From the NCBI GenBank assembly GCA_001515945.1, contig LOER01000018.1, positions 1 through 50,373 of the forward strand: a stretch of DNA of 50,373 nt. The letters run 5' to 3'. Origin of the DNA: Desulfitibacter sp. BRH_c19. Its GTDB lineage: Bacteria > Bacillota > DSM-16504 > Desulfitibacterales > Desulfitibacteraceae. Under the pieces are notes generated by a model, which was not told the origin of the DNA, made no database searches, and worked only from the letters and a program-made list of their open reading frames with translations. Positions 6,140 to 34,700 of the stretch are shown here, one piece after another; the first letter of the stretch is position 1, and each line of letters begins with the position of its first letter. Both the position numbers and the translations under genes were made by a program.

Positions 6140-6240
6140 CAGCTGAAAAAGGCAAAGCTATCGAAAGATAGTGACGCAAAGCTATGGGTCTAAAGTGTGC
6201 AGAGGTAATTTTTTTGCATTACTATGACTGCCAAGCCACC
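6140..6240 (+). ncRNA. Cyclic di-GMP-I (GEMM-I) riboswitch
   Basis: The stretch contains the hallmark GEMM-I core: GGCAAAGC, a GAAA tetraloop, then GACGCAAAGC, GGGTCTAAAG and, after a variable P3 hairpin, ATGACTGCCAAGCC. Order, spacing and sequence match the class I c-di-GMP aptamers of Clostridia. A terminator-like hairpin follows at 6269-6304, so the expression platform probably works by transcription termination. The first downstream frame (6373) is broken, and the next intact gene is at 6897. Confidence 0.88.
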
Positions 6241-6268
6241 AGACTTAGAAGCTTATTTAAGCTTTATT

Positions 6269-10473: not shown

Positions 10474-11031
10474 GTGCGCCTTGTTTCCGAACAGACTGTA
10501 TAGAAATATACAATAAAATCGGACTACGAGTAAAATAATAGCAAGTAGAACTAGTCATTTGAATTGGTAGGGGAAGTACCTGCCTGACTCTGTGTGAGGG
10601 GTAACAAAATCTCTAATACTCCGACGTGCATGAAGCAATGCCATGTCTAATGTACGAAGCTTGGTGAAGTAGCGGAAAATGATATCTGTGATGATATTAA
10701 GTACGCTGGAGGCTAAAAAGCAGTCATGCTTAGAATGTCTAATAGGATGACGAATATCCGAAAGTACGGCTCGTAACTAATAGGGTTGCGAATAGAAGCA
10801 ACTCGCTCCCATGTGGGGTGCTGTCGTTGAATTACATATACTTCGGTGGAATTCAACAGAAAACCAAAAAAGGTTGAAAGGTTTCAATAATGCAATCACA
10901 CTAGTTGAAAACGGCAGCCGGGTTAAAGGGTAGGGCTAAAACTGTTATGTAAAGCTAGAATGACAGGAACAAGGGAACTGTAATAGGATAAGTGGAAACA
11001 CAATGGGTGGTATACCAGTCCTAACCAATAG
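10474..11031 (+). mobile_element. Group II intron, 5' fragment (no ORF, no domain V)
   Basis: The region begins with GTGCG, the 5' end of bacterial group II introns. It continues for about 550 bases as dense stem-loops with the G+C-rich, non-coding look of domain I-III RNA (for example CATATACTTCGGTG). No maturase/reverse transcriptase frame and no domain V (GAGCCGT...AYGTRCGGTT-like) can be seen, so only the 5' part is left. It ends against a TetR-like gene fragment. The class cannot be fixed by eye, and another structured RNA is not excluded. Confidence 0.5.
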
Positions 11032-11299: not shown

Positions 11300-11616
11300 A
11301 TTAATAATATCTATCAAAGACAAAAGCAATGCGTGGGAATAGTAGGCATTTTGCAGGCACTCCAGAGAGCCGGAGGTAGTGGAATTTCGGCGTGTACCGG
11401 ATATGGTGAATGGACCCACAAGCTGTAGGTCGAAATTGCGCATATGCAAGAGTAGCAGCCTACCGGAAACCTTTACCGTTAAAAAAAGGCAGGTATCGGA
11501 CTTGATGAATACCCATAGTCCCGTACTTGAAAGAGTGGGCTTTTATTAGCCAATGAGGGTGGTACCGCGTGACGTAAGCTTTTCGTCCCTATTATAGGAC
11601 GAGAAGCTTTTTTATT
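11300..11616 (+). ncRNA. T-box leader of the trp operon, tRNA-Trp specifier
   Basis: The complete leader has Stem I with the AGTA/GAA loop-E pair, AGAGAGCC, the specifier loop GAATGGACCCAC and the T-box AGGGTGGTACCGCG (11556-11569). It ends in the terminator AAGCTTTTCGTCC / GGACGAGAAGCTT plus T-run (11577-11614). The trinucleotide after GAA is TGG, the only Trp codon, so uncharged tRNA-Trp should allow read-through into trpE. Confidence 0.93.
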
Positions 11617-26926: not shown

Positions 26927-26956
26927 TTGCCAAGGTGTTTGGACATATGGTATACT
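26927..26956 (+). promoter_or_regulatory. Sigma-A promoter before the T-box/symporter unit
   Basis: TTGCCA (26927-26932) and TATACT (26951-26956) are 18 bases apart, just before the T-box leader. Confidence 0.6.
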
Positions 26957-26974: not shown

Positions 26975-27276
26975 ATTTAAAAGTGATGAAAGAGAAAAGT
27001 AGGTAGACTGAAGTCCTTCAGGGATAAGGTGCCATAGACTGGAAGCATCTTTAGGAAAGAGGTATACTGAAGTTCGCTCTTGAGCTGTAGGGTGAAACTG
27101 CTCCGAAAGCAGTAAGTAGTCCGAACCGGATCTTCTCCGTTAAAATGAAGCCAGTATCGGGTAGATATACCCCGTACAGGAAACTCAAGGTGGCTAGATA
27201 TTTTCTAGCTATTAGGGTGGTACCGCGCTAAGCATAAGCTTTTCGTCCCTACAGGATGAAAAGCTTTTTATATTTT
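26975..27276 (+). ncRNA. T-box leader (specifier GUU or UUC)
   Basis: Complete T-box: Stem I with AGTAG opposite GAAGTTCGCTCTT, and T-box AGGGTGGTACCGCG (27214-27227). The terminator is AAGCTTTTC / GATGAAAAGCTT plus T-run (27238-27271). Directly after the GAA, as in the trp leader, the triplet reads GTT (Val). One base later it reads TTC (Phe). The second fits the aromatic genes downstream. A second antiterminator/terminator follows at 27290. Confidence 0.85.
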
Positions 27277-27289
27277 ACCAACAGCTAAC

Positions 27290-27390
27290 GGGTACTGGAC
27301 TAAGGGGGCAACTGTCTAGTTGCTTAAAAGGGTGGTACCGCGGTTAAGAACCGTCCCTCGTTTCATTAGAGGGACGGTTTTTCCTATGTA
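27290..27390 (+). ncRNA. Second, headless T-box antiterminator/terminator
   Basis: A second AGGGTGGTACCGCG (27329-27342) and its own terminator (AACCGTCCCTC / GAGGGACGGTT plus TTTT, 27349-27383) follow the first leader. Only about 50 bases lie in between, too few for a Stem I and specifier. Only the tRNA acceptor-sensing half is present, either decayed or working in series with the first leader. Confidence 0.75.
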
Positions 27391-27472: not shown

Positions 27473-27580
27473 ATGTTTGGAATATCTGATTGGCAGGTTT
27501 CTATGGCTTATATTTTAACTTTACTATCTGCAATTTTATGCGTTGTTTACGGAGTTGTTAAGTGGAATAGTGACAATTAA
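27473..27580 (+). CDS. Symporter small accessory protein
   Basis: 35 residues with one membrane segment (about 12-29, AYILTLLSAILCVVYGVV). The N-terminus MFGISDWQ and the tail KWNSDN match the small accessory proteins that precede SSS-family symporters in Firmicutes. GGAGGTG lies 6 bases before ATG. The symporter gene starts 73 bases later. Probably a subunit or stabiliser of that transporter. Confidence 0.72.
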   Translation: MFGISDWQVSMAYILTLLSAILCVVYGVVKWNSDN

Positions 27581-27653: not shown

Positions 27654-29240
27654 ATGAACAATATTTTGCTATATGGTTTAATTATTCTTTATCTAGCTAT
27701 TGTCGCTGGTTTAACGTACTTGGCTTACAGCCGAACAAAGAGCTCCAAGGACTACTTAATTGCTGGGGGAAACGCTCATCCATTTTTGATGGCAATGGCC
27801 TATGGTTCAACTTTCATTAGTACTTCCGCCATTATAGGGTTTGGTGGTGCGGCAGCACTTTTTGGGATGGGTATGATGTGGCTGGCATTTCTAAATATAT
27901 TTGTGGGTATTTTCTTAGCATTCATTCTTTTTGGGAAGCCTACATTGCGCTTAAGCAAAGAATTAAATGTGAGTACTTTTCCTGAGCTTTTGGGTAAAAG
28001 ATATGACTCAAAATTTATTCAACAATACGCAGCGGTGATCATCTCGCTGACAATGCCCTTGTATGCAGCTGCAGTAATGATAGGGGCAGCTTGGTTTTTA
28101 CAACTTGTATTAGATGTGCCATACAGCACTACAGTATGGATTTTTGGAATAATAGTAGGAATTTATGTTATGACTGGTGGACTTAAAGGGGTATTTTACA
28201 ACGATGCTTTTCAAGGAACTTTAATGTTTGTGGGTATGTTCATTCTTTTAATTGCTACGTACATTCAATTAGGTGGAGTTACAAATGCGCATATGGCATT
28301 AACAAATCTAGCACACTTGGTCCCAGAAAACCTTGTTGCCCAGGGGCATCAGGGATGGACTCAAATGCCAAAGTTTATTTCAGAACAGTGGTGGGTCTTA
28401 GTTTCAACCTTAGTTCTTGGAGTAGGGATAGGCGTCTTGGCTCAGCCGCAGTTGATTGTACGCTATATGACTGTCAAAGGTCCCAAGGAATTAAACAGGG
28501 CAGTAGCCATTGGTGGAGTATTTATCATTATGATGACTGGTGTAGCTTTTTTGGTAGGTTCTTTGACAAATGTGTATTTTCATCAAAACCTAGGACAAAT
28601 ATCCCTAGCTGCCTCTGTTGATCCAGTCACTAATGTGGCAAATATAGATAGAATAATTCCTCTTTATATAAATATGGCTATGCCGGAATGGTTTTCATAT
28701 TTGCTGCTTCTAACACTTCTGGCAGCAGCGATGTCAACCTTGAGCGGGCAATTTCATGCTATTGGAACGTCAATAAGCCATGATCTTTATAAATCTTCAG
28801 GTTTACTAGGTCACAGGGGAGGTATAATAGTCGCTTTATTGGCAACTGTATGGTTATGCTTTAAACTTCCCCCTAGCATTATTGCGATTTCAACGGCCAT
28901 GTTTTTTGGGATATGTGCATCAACCTTCTTGCCAGCTTATAGTGCAGCTCTTTTCTGGAAAAAGGCAACAAGATCAGGTGCTATAGCAAGCATGATAGTG
29001 GGTTCATTTGCAAATATTCTTTATATGATGTTTATCCATGCCAAAGAAGCTAATGCTATAGGCATAAGTAAAGCTCTATTTGATAAAAGCACTTTACTTA
29101 GTTCTCCCTGGACTGTGGTTGACCCAATGCTTGTAAGTCTTCCTATTGCGGCTTTTACCCTGGTGGTTGTTAGTCTTTTAACCCAGGAGCAGGAAAGTGA
29201 TGTAACACAAAAAACAGCTTTAGCAAAGAGTAATGCTTGA
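27654..29240 (+). CDS. Sodium/solute symporter (SSS family)
   Basis: 528 residues with about 13 membrane segments. Family marks include SKDYLIAGG after segment 1, a GGLKGVFYNDAFQG stretch in segments 5-6 and LAAAMSTLSGQFHAIGTSISHDLY near segment 8-9. Takes up an organic solute with Na+. The T-box leader points to an amino acid or its derivative. The downstream arylacetate-CoA ligase suggests an aromatic amino acid or aryl acid, which is inference. Start ATG 27654 follows GAAAGGAAGGG. The preceding small accessory protein supports the call. Confidence 0.85.
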   Translation: MNNILLYGLIILYLAIVAGLTYLAYSRTKSSKDYLIAGGNAHPFLMAMAYGSTFISTSAIIGFGGAAALFGMGMMWLAFLNIFVGIFLAFILFGKPTLRLSKELNVSTFPELLGKRYDSKFIQQYAAVIISLTMPLYAAAVMIGAAWFLQLVLDVPYSTTVWIFGIIVGIYVMTGGLKGVFYNDAFQGTLMFVGMFILLIATYIQLGGVTNAHMALTNLAHLVPENLVAQGHQGWTQMPKFISEQWWVLVSTLVLGVGIGVLAQPQLIVRYMTVKGPKELNRAVAIGGVFIIMMTGVAFLVGSLTNVYFHQNLGQISLAASVDPVTNVANIDRIIPLYINMAMPEWFSYLLLLTLLAAAMSTLSGQFHAIGTSISHDLYKSSGLLGHRGGIIVALLATVWLCFKLPPSIIAISTAMFFGICASTFLPAYSAALFWKKATRSGAIASMIVGSFANILYMMFIHAKEANAIGISKALFDKSTLLSSPWTVVDPMLVSLPIAAFTLVVVSLLTQEQESDVTQKTALAKSNA

Positions 29241-30339: not shown

Positions 30340-31638
30340 ATGTATTGGAATGAAAAATATGAATGCCTAACAAGAAATGAACTACAGCATTTACAATTAG
30401 AAAGATTAAAACAAACCCTTGAAAGAGCCTATCACAATGTAAATCATTATAGAAAAACAATGCAAACAGCAGGTGTGGAACCTAAGGATTTAAAAACCCT
30501 GGAGGATCTGCAAAAATTTCCGTTTACCAGAAAGACAGATTTAAGGGATAACTATCCATATGGAATGTTTGCCGTTAATTTGAGTGAGGTTGTAAGAATT
30601 CATTCCTCATCAGGTACTACAGGAAAGCCCACGGTTGTTGGATATACAAGAAATGATATTAATAACTGGTCAGAGCTTATGGCACGTTCTCTTATGAGCG
30701 CTGGAGCACAAAAAGAGGATGTCATTCAAAATGCTTATGGATATGGTTTATTTACAGGGGGTCTTGGTGTACATTATGGTGCAGAGAAAATTGGCGCGTC
30801 CATAATTCCCATTTCAGGTGGTAATACTAAAAGACAGGTAATGATAATGAAGGACTATGGAAGTACTATAATAACCTGTACACCATCCTATGCCTTATTT
30901 ATAGCTGAAGTTATAGAGGAAATGGGATTAGGGCCTGAGGACTTTAAATTAAAGGCAGGAATATTTGGAGCTGAGCCCTGGTCGGAGAATATGCGCAAGG
31001 AAATTGAGCAGAGATTAGGAATATTAGCAATTGATATATATGGGCTTAGTGAAATAATAGGCCCAGGTGTGGCAGTTGAGTGTAAGCATAAAAATGGTTT
31101 ACACGTTATGGAGGATCATTTTATTGTTGAAATTATAAACCCTGAAACAGGGGAAGTGCTTCCACCTGGAGAAAGAGGGGAGCTTGTATTTACTTCTCTC
31201 ACCAAAGAAGCATTGCCTATTATACGGTATCGAACTGGAGATATTTCCAGGTTAATTATAGAAGAATGTGAATGCGGCAGGACAAGTGTTAAGATAGGTA
31301 GAATTGAAGGTAGAACAGATGACATGCTAATTATTAGGGGTGTAAATGTTTTCCCATCGCAGATAGAGCACGTTCTCCTGGAAATTGGCGAAACAGAGCC
31401 TCATTATATATTAGTTGTAGATAGAATTGGTAGCTTGGATATATTAGAGGTTCAGGTTGAGGTTTCTGAGAAAATGTTTTCTGATGAAGTAAGGCAGCTT
31501 GAGGTAATAAGTAAAAAAATTAGAAATGAAATAGAAAGTGTTCTTGGAGTTTCTGTAACAGTAAAACTAGTAGAACCAAAGAAAATAGCTAGAAGTGAAG
31601 GAAAGGCTCAAAGGGTTATTGATAAGAGAAAAATATAA
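30340..31638 (+). CDS. Phenylacetate-CoA ligase family protein (1)
   Basis: 432 residues. AMP-forming ligase that activates phenylacetate or a similar arylacetate with ATP and CoA. The P-loop [14 protein letters not shown] (about 87-100), [27 protein letters not shown] and the C-terminal [10 protein letters not shown] and [19 protein letters not shown] are all present. GGAGG precedes ATG. The ACT gene follows after 9 bases. In aromatic amino acid fermenters such pairs often sit beside indolepyruvate:ferredoxin oxidoreductase genes, which are not in this window. Paralogue of the gene at 33399. Confidence 0.9.
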
Positions 31639-33318: not shown

Positions 33319-33399
33319 ATGAAATTTGATATTTTCAGTCATCTCCAAGAGGTTTTTGGCCAAAGACATTTAAAAGCCAAAATGGAGGTGACTAACTAA
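33319..33399 (+). CDS. Possible 26-aa upstream ORF coupled to the ligase gene
   Basis: An ATG 11 bases after GGAAGG opens 26 codons (KFDIFSHLQEVFGQRHLKAK). The TAA overlaps the ligase ATG (TAATG). The ligase ribosome-binding site GGAGGTG lies within its last codons. It may be a coupling ORF or a remnant. Confidence 0.35.
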   Translation: MKFDIFSHLQEVFGQRHLKAKMEVTN

Positions 33400-34700
33400 T
33401 GGTATGGTCAAGAGAAGAAACTATAGCTAGAGAAGAGTTAAATCAATTACAGTTAAATAGATTACAGGATACTGTAATGAAAATATATAATAACGTACCA
33501 TTTTATAGAAAAAGGTTAGATGAAATGGGAGTTAAACCTGAAGATATTCAAAGTTTGGAGGATGTTACTAAACTTCCTTTTACAACAAAAGATGATTTTA
33601 GGGATAATTACCCCTATGGGCTTTTTGCAGTCCCCATGGATGATGTTGTAAGACTTCACGCGTCTTCAGGAACAACGGGAAAATCAACAGTAGTAGGATA
33701 TACACAAAAAGACCTGAATACATGGACAGAGGTAGTTGCAAGAATCATTAAACAGGCAGGTGTAACTAATAGAGATATAGTCCAGGTTGCCTTTGGCTAT
33801 GGATTATTTACAGGAGCATTTGGACTTCACTATGGATTGGAAAAGGTAGGGGCAACAGTAGTACCAACTTCATCTGGTGGAACAGAAAAGCAAATTATGA
33901 TTATGAAAGATTTTGGAACTACCGTGCTTGTTAGTACGCCCTCCTATGCCCTTCATATGGCAGAGGTTGCAGAAAAGATGGGACTCATAGGAGATTTAAA
34001 GCTGAGAGTAGGTCTTTTTGGTGCCGAAGGCTGTAGTGATGAAATGAGAAAAGAAATTGAAAAAAGATGGGGAATAATTGCAACAGATAATTATGGATTA
34101 AGTGAAGTAATAGGACCTGGAGTATCAGGTGAGTGTGAATATAAACAGGGTATGCACATAAGTGAGGATCACTTCTTGGTTGAAGTAATTGATCCGCATA
34201 CTCTGCAATCTGTCAAACCTGGACAAAAGGGTGAACTAGTTTTTACCACACTTACAAAGGAAGCTCTGCCAGTAATAAGATACAGGACAAAAGATATTTC
34301 GTATATAATGCAGGAGCCCTGCCATTGTGGAAGGACTACAGCGCGTATGGCAAAGGTCTCGGGTAGAAGTGATGATATGTTAATTATCAGGGGAGTAAAT
34401 GTTTTCCCCTCCCAGATAGAGAGTGTTCTTATGGAAATAGATGGTATTGCACCTCATTATCAGCTTGTTGTTTCTAAAAAGAATCATATGGATCAATTGG
34501 AAGTTAAGGTTGAGGTTACTGCAGCTGCTTTAACAAGGGGGCACCTTGAAATACAGCGCATTGAAAGAACAGTTACAAAAAGACTGCAGTCTGTATTATC
34601 AATAAAGGCTGTAATTAGTATCATGGAACCTTTTACCATGGAGAGATTTCAAGGGAAAGCAAAAAGAGTTATTGACATGAGGCAAAAAGCAGCAATCTAG
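33399..34700 (+). CDS. Phenylacetate-CoA ligase family protein (2)
   Basis: 433 residues, a paralogue of the ligase at 30340 with the same motif set: SSGTTGKSTVVGYT, GYGLFTGAFGLHYG, DNYGLSEVIGPGVSGECEY, RYRTKDISYIM and [21 protein letters not shown] zinc-like CHCGR motif replaces the CECGR of the first copy. Probably activates a different arylacetate, for example one of phenyl-, indole- or hydroxyphenylacetate. It is separated from the first copy by an inverted repeat and a terminator, so control may differ. Two MFS genes follow. Confidence 0.88.
   Translation: MVWSREETIAREELNQLQLNRLQDTVMKIYNNVPFYRKRLDEMGVKPEDIQSLEDVTKLPFTTKDDFRDNYPYGLFAVPMDDVVRLHASSGTTGKSTVVGYTQKDLNTWTEVVARIIKQAGVTNRDIVQVAFGYGLFTGAFGLHYGLEKVGATVVPTSSGGTEKQIMIMKDFGTTVLVSTPSYALHMAEVAEKMGLIGDLKLRVGLFGAEGCSDEMRKEIEKRWGIIATDNYGLSEVIGPGVSGECEYKQGMHISEDHFLVEVIDPHTLQSVKPGQKGELVFTTLTKEALPVIRYRTKDISYIMQEPCHCGRTTARMAKVSGRSDDMLIIRGVNVFPSQIESVLMEIDGIAPHYQLVVSKKNHMDQLEVKVEVTAAALTRGHLEIQRIERTVTKRLQSVLSIKAVISIMEPFTMERFQGKAKRVIDMRQKAAI

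Follow-up and report, generated by a model that had tools for sequence, protein, structure and literature searches.

The window, that is, the whole 50,373 nt stretch of DNA analysed (contig LOER01000018.1 of Desulfitibacter sp. BRH_c19), contains a leader with two T-box units in front of genes for a small accessory protein and a sodium:solute symporter. Downstream of the symporter gene lie a gene for a DMT-type transporter and two phenylacetate-CoA ligase paralogues (window positions 30340-31638 and 33399-34700). The linker hairpin of unit 1 is denoted U and the proposed exchange strand V. The features of the leader and of the two regulated genes are as follows.

26927..26956, + strand: promoter-like site, TTGCCA-18-TATACT (consensus scan, 10/12)
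26977..27253, + strand: unit 1, complete T-box with Stem I, II, IIA/B, III and antiterminator (RF00230)
27069..27075, + strand: specifier loop GAAGUUC, with the specifier read as UUC (Phe) at 27073-27075 (sequence position)
27151..27180, + strand: U, linker hairpin of unit 1 (fold -12.6 kcal/mol), with 5' strand CCAGUAUCGGG at 27151-27161 and 3' strand CCCCGUACAGG at 27170-27180
27190..27212, + strand: Stem III of unit 1 (fold -11.2 kcal/mol; RF00230 alignment)
27215..27228, + strand: T-box sequence 1 with UGGU bulge (RF00230 match, sequence)
27236..27266, + strand: terminator 1 (fold -17.4 kcal/mol; terminator scan)
27285..27298, + strand: V, proposed exchange strand, CUAACGGGUACUGG (12/14 pairs with 27151-27164, by eye)
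27306..27325, + strand: Stem III of headless unit 2 (fold -8.6 kcal/mol)
27330..27343, + strand: T-box sequence 2 (GGGUGGUACCGCG) with UGGU bulge (RF00230 truncated match, sequence)
27346..27382, + strand: terminator 2 (fold -22.8 kcal/mol; terminator scan)
27473..27580, + strand: regulated gene 1, symporter small accessory protein of 35 amino acids (NCBIfam NF045580, 62.4 bits, cut-off 35)
27654..29240, + strand: regulated gene 2, sodium:solute symporter (Pfam PF00474, 179 bits)

Unit 1 scored 99.1 bits against RF00230 (gathering threshold 93) with the full model, positions 1-219, covered, and is a full member of the class I transcriptional T-boxes. The T-box sequence GGGTGGTACCGCG starts twice, at 27215 and 27330. 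Unit 2 alone scored under the gathering threshold, with a 5'-truncated match of 39.2 bits (27230-27361) spanning Stem III, the T-box sequence and the antiterminator. A U-rich tract 3' of terminator 1 reaches 27276 and, because only about 30 nt separate it from Stem III of unit 2 (core GCAACU-GUCU-AGUUGC, 27308-27323), unit 2 has no Stem I; a hidden Stem I was rejected, the space being too short and the model giving no match. The preliminary description of a complete T-box followed by a second T-box with its own terminator and no room for Stem I was confirmed by these results. The second unit without Stem I is real and far above chance. The second T-box and its terminator follow within roughly 160 nt and bring no further Stem I with a specifier, which makes the leader a partially and not a fully tandem T-box. 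In each unit the antiterminator and the terminator share sequence and are mutually exclusive, the terminator being the stabler form in both (the antiterminators fold at -10.5 kcal/mol in unit 1 and -9.2 kcal/mol in unit 2). A PyrR or L10 leader at 27234-27385 was rejected, the scores being far under gathering. Three promoter-like sites were found in the region against 1.8 expected, which makes the promoter assignment weak evidence.

T-boxes with duplicated terminator-antiterminator elements were reportedly described by Vitreschak et al. in 2008, in RNA 14:717. The term 'partially tandem' is used in passages of PMC7583486, and such T-boxes are mentioned, with their mode of action given as unknown, in the parts of a 2020 review that were consulted. 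As presented in these passages they have the same build as the window leader, a single specifier domain with two terminator-antiterminator modules behind it; the one-Stem-I, two-module architecture is thus already known and not new. What is added here by comparison of sequences is a putative conserved U:V exchange helix which, with matched bulges, would link the second module to Stem I of unit 1. Unit 2 shares Stem III, the UGGN bulge, the antiterminator and the terminator logic with class I T-boxes, but it lacks Stem I, II and IIA/B and is unable to select a tRNA alone. In the passages of PMC12452182 that were seen, tandem T-boxes are contiguous complete units, for example in the trp and thrS leaders; as here, two terminators stand in series and uncharged tRNA is sensed, but each unit has its own Stem I and tRNA, whereas here one Stem I probably serves both. 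Several regulatory parts per leader, as here, also occur in the tandem riboswitches treated in passages of PMC9481103. The glycine riboswitch, as portrayed in the passages searched, has two aptamers and one platform, whereas the present leader would be the reverse, with one aptamer and two successive platforms. No U:V-like exchange was found in the titles and abstracts of the literature searched, a scope outside which most subscription papers lie.

The whole tandem is kept in both congeners found (G001 and G002) with 86% identity and with the same small protein and symporter genes downstream. Headless tandems were searched for with the pattern GGTGGNAMCNCG...TTT...GGTGGNACC, in which the starts lie 95-155 nt apart, too short for another Stem I. 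The pattern occurred in 46 of the phylum's 398 genomes, against 3 for the reversed control, and in 3/4 genomes of the source's class. It was present in 32 of 63 genomes in the class of G018 and in 59 of 113 in that of G120. A scan of 84,980 named species gave at least 118 stretches; Lactobacillales and clostridial lineages contribute many, and some of those listed are clear chance matches in other phyla. 39 of 170 pattern matches were discarded for lack of a proper second T-box, and in the accepted leaders the two T-box sequences lie 96-151 nt apart. Headless tandems precede Phe, Trp and Ser genes and, in Lactobacillales, genes for hisXYZ-type ABC transporters; the histidine assignment of the lactobacillar leaders rests on a CAC motif and on passages of PMC9413887. 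The source genome has a second headless tandem (G000:C26:207960-208365, entered as L007 and L014), which is of the Phe type and precedes a DAHP synthase gene. PaaK-like genes follow headless Phe T-boxes elsewhere (L025, L070 and L073), an arrangement which suggests that phenylalanine is made from phenylacetate.

The specifier loop GAAGUUC was taken to specify Phe on the basis of the motif and of the downstream genes. The motif occurs in 62/126 headless-tandem leaders from the first set and in 61/61 held-out leaders, and leaders carrying it mostly precede aromatic amino acid genes (DAHP synthase, PaaK-like ligases, symporters). The source genome contains a tRNA-Phe with anticodon GAA and the 3' end ...A-CCA, and the UGGU bulge of unit 1 is complementary to the ACCA end. 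U occupies the variable position of both bulges (UGGU) in 120/123 Phe-motif leaders (61/62 in the first set and 59/61 held-out). The first-set exception is L063, a serC leader that contains the motif; the two held-out exceptions are U/A and U/G. C was found in both bulges in 9/9 leaders before ser-type genes and in the trpE/trpD-type leaders L058, L104, L161 and L201, with C/U in L146. The proposition that the N of UGGN is matched in every leader was rejected, since in the lactobacillar hisXYZ-type leaders (e.g. L078, L092, L118, L136 and L151) it often differs between the units and varies from leader to leader. tRNA-His has an unusual C73 paired with G-1, and we suspect that the variable N in these leaders is due to this feature. 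The AA between Stem III and the T-box sequence is present in 116/126 second units and 113/126 first units, and an RRRNG motif, short and thus weak evidence, lies upstream in 81 and 79 of 126. These counts on 126 leaders were made after L141, L174, L179 and L189 (five rows) had been removed by name. Judged by its sequence, unit 2 retains the acceptor-end-sensing parts.

In unit 1, U follows the F-box and precedes Stem III, and it has the typical form GGUAUCGG-loop-CCCGUACC. The complementarity of V, which lies between terminator 1 and Stem III of unit 2, to the 5' strand and loop of U was first seen in leader listings. It was assessed by a partner-swap test in which the U:V duplex energy of true partners was compared with that obtained after exchanging V between sequence clusters, a procedure that leaves some shared ancestry in the test. 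109 of 131 leaders were usable, 22 having no recognisable F-box, V or loop; the serC leaders, with no F-box found, fell outside the test. Leaders were divided into clostridial and lactobacillar types by a rule on the downstream protein, which gives a rough split. The z score was -12.5 for the clostridial type (n = 67, 41 clusters) and likewise -12.5 for the lactobacillar type (n = 42, 29 clusters), and the share of U-loop nucleotides paired to V gave z scores of 5.1 and 5.3, respectively. A held-out set (65 leaders found, 4 dropped) was fetched afterwards and run with the same code, giving z scores of -12.0 for the duplex and 5.4 for the loop (n = 61, 35 clusters); for the 32 held-out leaders least similar to the first set (sharing at most 30% of 8-mers with any leader of the first set; 23 clusters) the values were -9.5 and 3.9. 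Cruder earlier versions of the test agree with this result.

The loop was tested separately because V would likewise complement the 5' strand of U if the 3' half of unit 1 had simply been duplicated. V carries the complement of the loop (0.645 versus 0.497, z = 3.8, p = 0.00015) and no copy of it (z = -0.9), so plain duplication was rejected as the origin of the match. In a column test the stem positions covaried, for example from G-C to A-U at the fourth pair (0.96 versus 0.84 paired, z = 4.1); several loop columns were individually non-significant. Leaders without sequence anchors were left out of the crude U/V, loop and column tests. Single T-boxes supplied with a pseudo-V gave no U:V signal (z = -0.2 and -0.1) in a control that was small (n = 18) because most single T-boxes have no linker hairpin. 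The distance from F-box to T-box was at least 60 nt in 100/113 tandem leaders versus 7/36 single T-boxes, although the long linker of the tandems may in part be a trait of the Phe family itself. For the leader group as a whole, covariation shows V to be complementary to the 5' strand and loop of U, as expected of an exchange helix; L011, L018, L181, L197 and L214 have no loop pairing. V covers at least 60% of the U 5' strand in 146/167 leaders and at least 60% of the U 3' strand in 58/167, 48 of which also have the 5' strand covered. What comparison across leaders shows is that both modules are present, that their bulges match and that the U:V helix covaries.

Single leaders were examined by testing the whole linker against dinucleotide shuffles of V, which is a weak per-leader test: p was below 0.05 for 64/107 leaders (32/65 clostridial and 32/42 lactobacillar; L141 and L202 removed). 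U:V was predicted to be stabler than the hairpin of U itself in 64/65 clostridial and 42/42 lactobacillar leaders, in a comparison that sets a longer duplex against a hairpin and ignores the closing penalty. Both the minimum-energy and the centroid fold of the DAHP synthase leader (L007) are in the exchanged state (z = -4.0), with the 5' strand and loop of U paired with V and enclosing Stem III and terminator 1 of unit 1. The minimum-energy fold of the window leader keeps U's own hairpin without U:V, its ensemble contains almost no U:V pairs (expected number near 0), and its shuffle test gave p = 0.70 (0.07 and 0.09 for the congeners). In the homologous register the duplex of the two 17-mers has an energy of -14.7 kcal/mol, the best of 28 clusters: none of the partners from the 27 other clusters did as well in either direction (0/27; means -8.7 and -7.3 kcal/mol). 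At positions where GGGG or GGGA stands in many leaders, U of the window leader reads CCAG, and its V reads CUGG versus CC-rich strands elsewhere. Since the register fit is good, but the shuffle test and the minimum-energy fold do not show the helix, the window leader was rated a probable but weak case of the predicted exchange helix.

In a Phe T-box, as is established, uncharged tRNA attaches to Stem I through its anticodon, and base pairing of the tRNA's ACCA end with UGGU in the antiterminator bulge lets the polymerase past the terminator. In the mechanism that we propose, uncharged tRNA-Phe on Stem I and antiterminator 1 would allow the polymerase to pass terminator 1. The headless unit would be transcribed next, and V, its 5' edge, being complementary to the 5' strand and loop of U, would displace the 3' strand of U, so that a helix before Stem III of unit 2 would replace that before Stem III of unit 1. 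The read-out of unit 1 would be looped out and could refold to the terminator 1 hairpin, which would be harmless once passed. Stem III and the antiterminator of unit 2 would then take the place of the first pair beside that one Stem I-tRNA complex. A tRNA that remains uncharged would hold antiterminator 2 with its ACCA end; if it has gone, or a charged tRNA is in its place, terminator 2 would fire. V emerges once terminator 1 has been passed, too late to influence that decision, and overlaps neither antiterminator 2 nor terminator 2; its possible role would be to choose which Stem III joins Stem II. In the 58 leaders in which V also matches the 3' strand of U, exchange could start from that side. 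The distance from the linker helix to the T-box sequence is alike in the two units (median 38 nt in unit 1 and 33 nt in unit 2; 46 leaders).

From the comparative evidence, the reading that we consider likely, with considerable reserve, is that after terminator 1 V brings the second read-out, by strand exchange, to the Stem I-tRNA complex that served the first. The same tRNA would probably be checked twice. We infer that U:V forms in the cell, after readthrough, and that the same tRNA is handed over in a serial check. We are evenly divided on the wider proposition that one tRNA-Stem I complex would be read twice in time by successive platforms through a cotranscriptional, loop-seeded strand exchange conserved in clostridial Phe/Trp and lactobacillar His-type leaders.

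The preliminary description had left open whether the second unit acts in series or is a remnant. Action in series is favoured by the covarying helix and the matched bulges; the earlier version of this reading did not include the strand exchange through which a single Stem I could serve both read-outs. Two terminators might, as that description proposed, sharpen the response. Series action could also take another form, in which the units are independent: with no Stem I involved, the headless discriminator would capture a second uncharged tRNA, a free one, by its acceptor end, giving two tRNA events in series. Every part of a discriminator is present in unit 2 and the variable spacing of the T-box sequences also fits independent units, but neither the covarying U:V helix nor the linker hairpin that accompanies headless units would be explained. 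Lacking Stem I, a unit of this kind would be poorly specific, and the weak binding of tRNA by an isolated antiterminator also counts against independent units, which we regard as unlikely. Complementary loops and the leaders in which V matches the 3' strand of U would suit a docking of hairpins, in which the linker hairpin of unit 2 kisses U loop to loop and no exchange takes place. Most leaders, however, have a V that pairs with the 5' and not the 3' strand, lactobacillar V segments are, by eye, mostly without a 5' partner strand, and the fold of L007 shows exchange, which makes such docking rather improbable.

The remnant half of the earlier alternative, in which unit 2 would be a decayed duplicate or a fail-safe whose terminator adds basal termination only, fared worst. 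Relatives with a single unit exist and the exchange helix of the window leader is weak, but the second unit is kept in the genus and, in two classes, by about half of the genomes, with its own Stem III, a matched discriminator base, the AA flank, a terminator and a covarying helix; we consider a remnant very improbable. If the strand-exchange relay is true, it would be a one-aptamer, two-platform riboswitch making a time-delayed check of tRNA charging, and an RNA would reuse one bound ligand for two sequential decisions. In the literature passages searched, no riboswitch was described as doing so. Many Phe, Trp, Ser and His leaders of Clostridia-like lineages and Lactobacillales that are reported as single by family search would then hold a second checkpoint. 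The exchange helix makes the action of partially tandem T-boxes testable, as compensatory mutations predict which terminator fails.

Elsewhere in the window, a single Trp-specific T-box (specifier UGG) with no second unit lies at 11320-11593 and has the same kind of linker hairpin, GGUAUCGG..CCCGUAC. Also found were a c-di-GMP-I-GGC riboswitch at 6142-6244 (62.4 bits) and, at 10546-10719, a group II intron D1D4 fragment (57.8 bits).

A separate observation concerns leuS T-box leaders in the class of G018, in which a whole tRNA-Ala (anticodon GGC, CCA encoded) is embedded; no tRNA-bearing T-box was described in the titles and abstracts of the literature searched. ARAGORN was run on 16 candidate loci and 14 were positive (L340, L361, L366-L375, L378 and L379; for example L371:559-844 with the tRNA at 714-789), corresponding to 14/15 genomes. 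The tRNA sits in the loop of Stem III, 16-23 nt 5' of the T-box sequence. A specifier motif, GAA-CUC (Leu), can be made out in most of these leaders. The open reading frame behind them encodes leucyl-tRNA synthetase in the two tested (TIGR00396) and is similar-looking in 12/14. From their sequences these leaders may represent a tRNA-bearing T-box, a strange conserved fusion.
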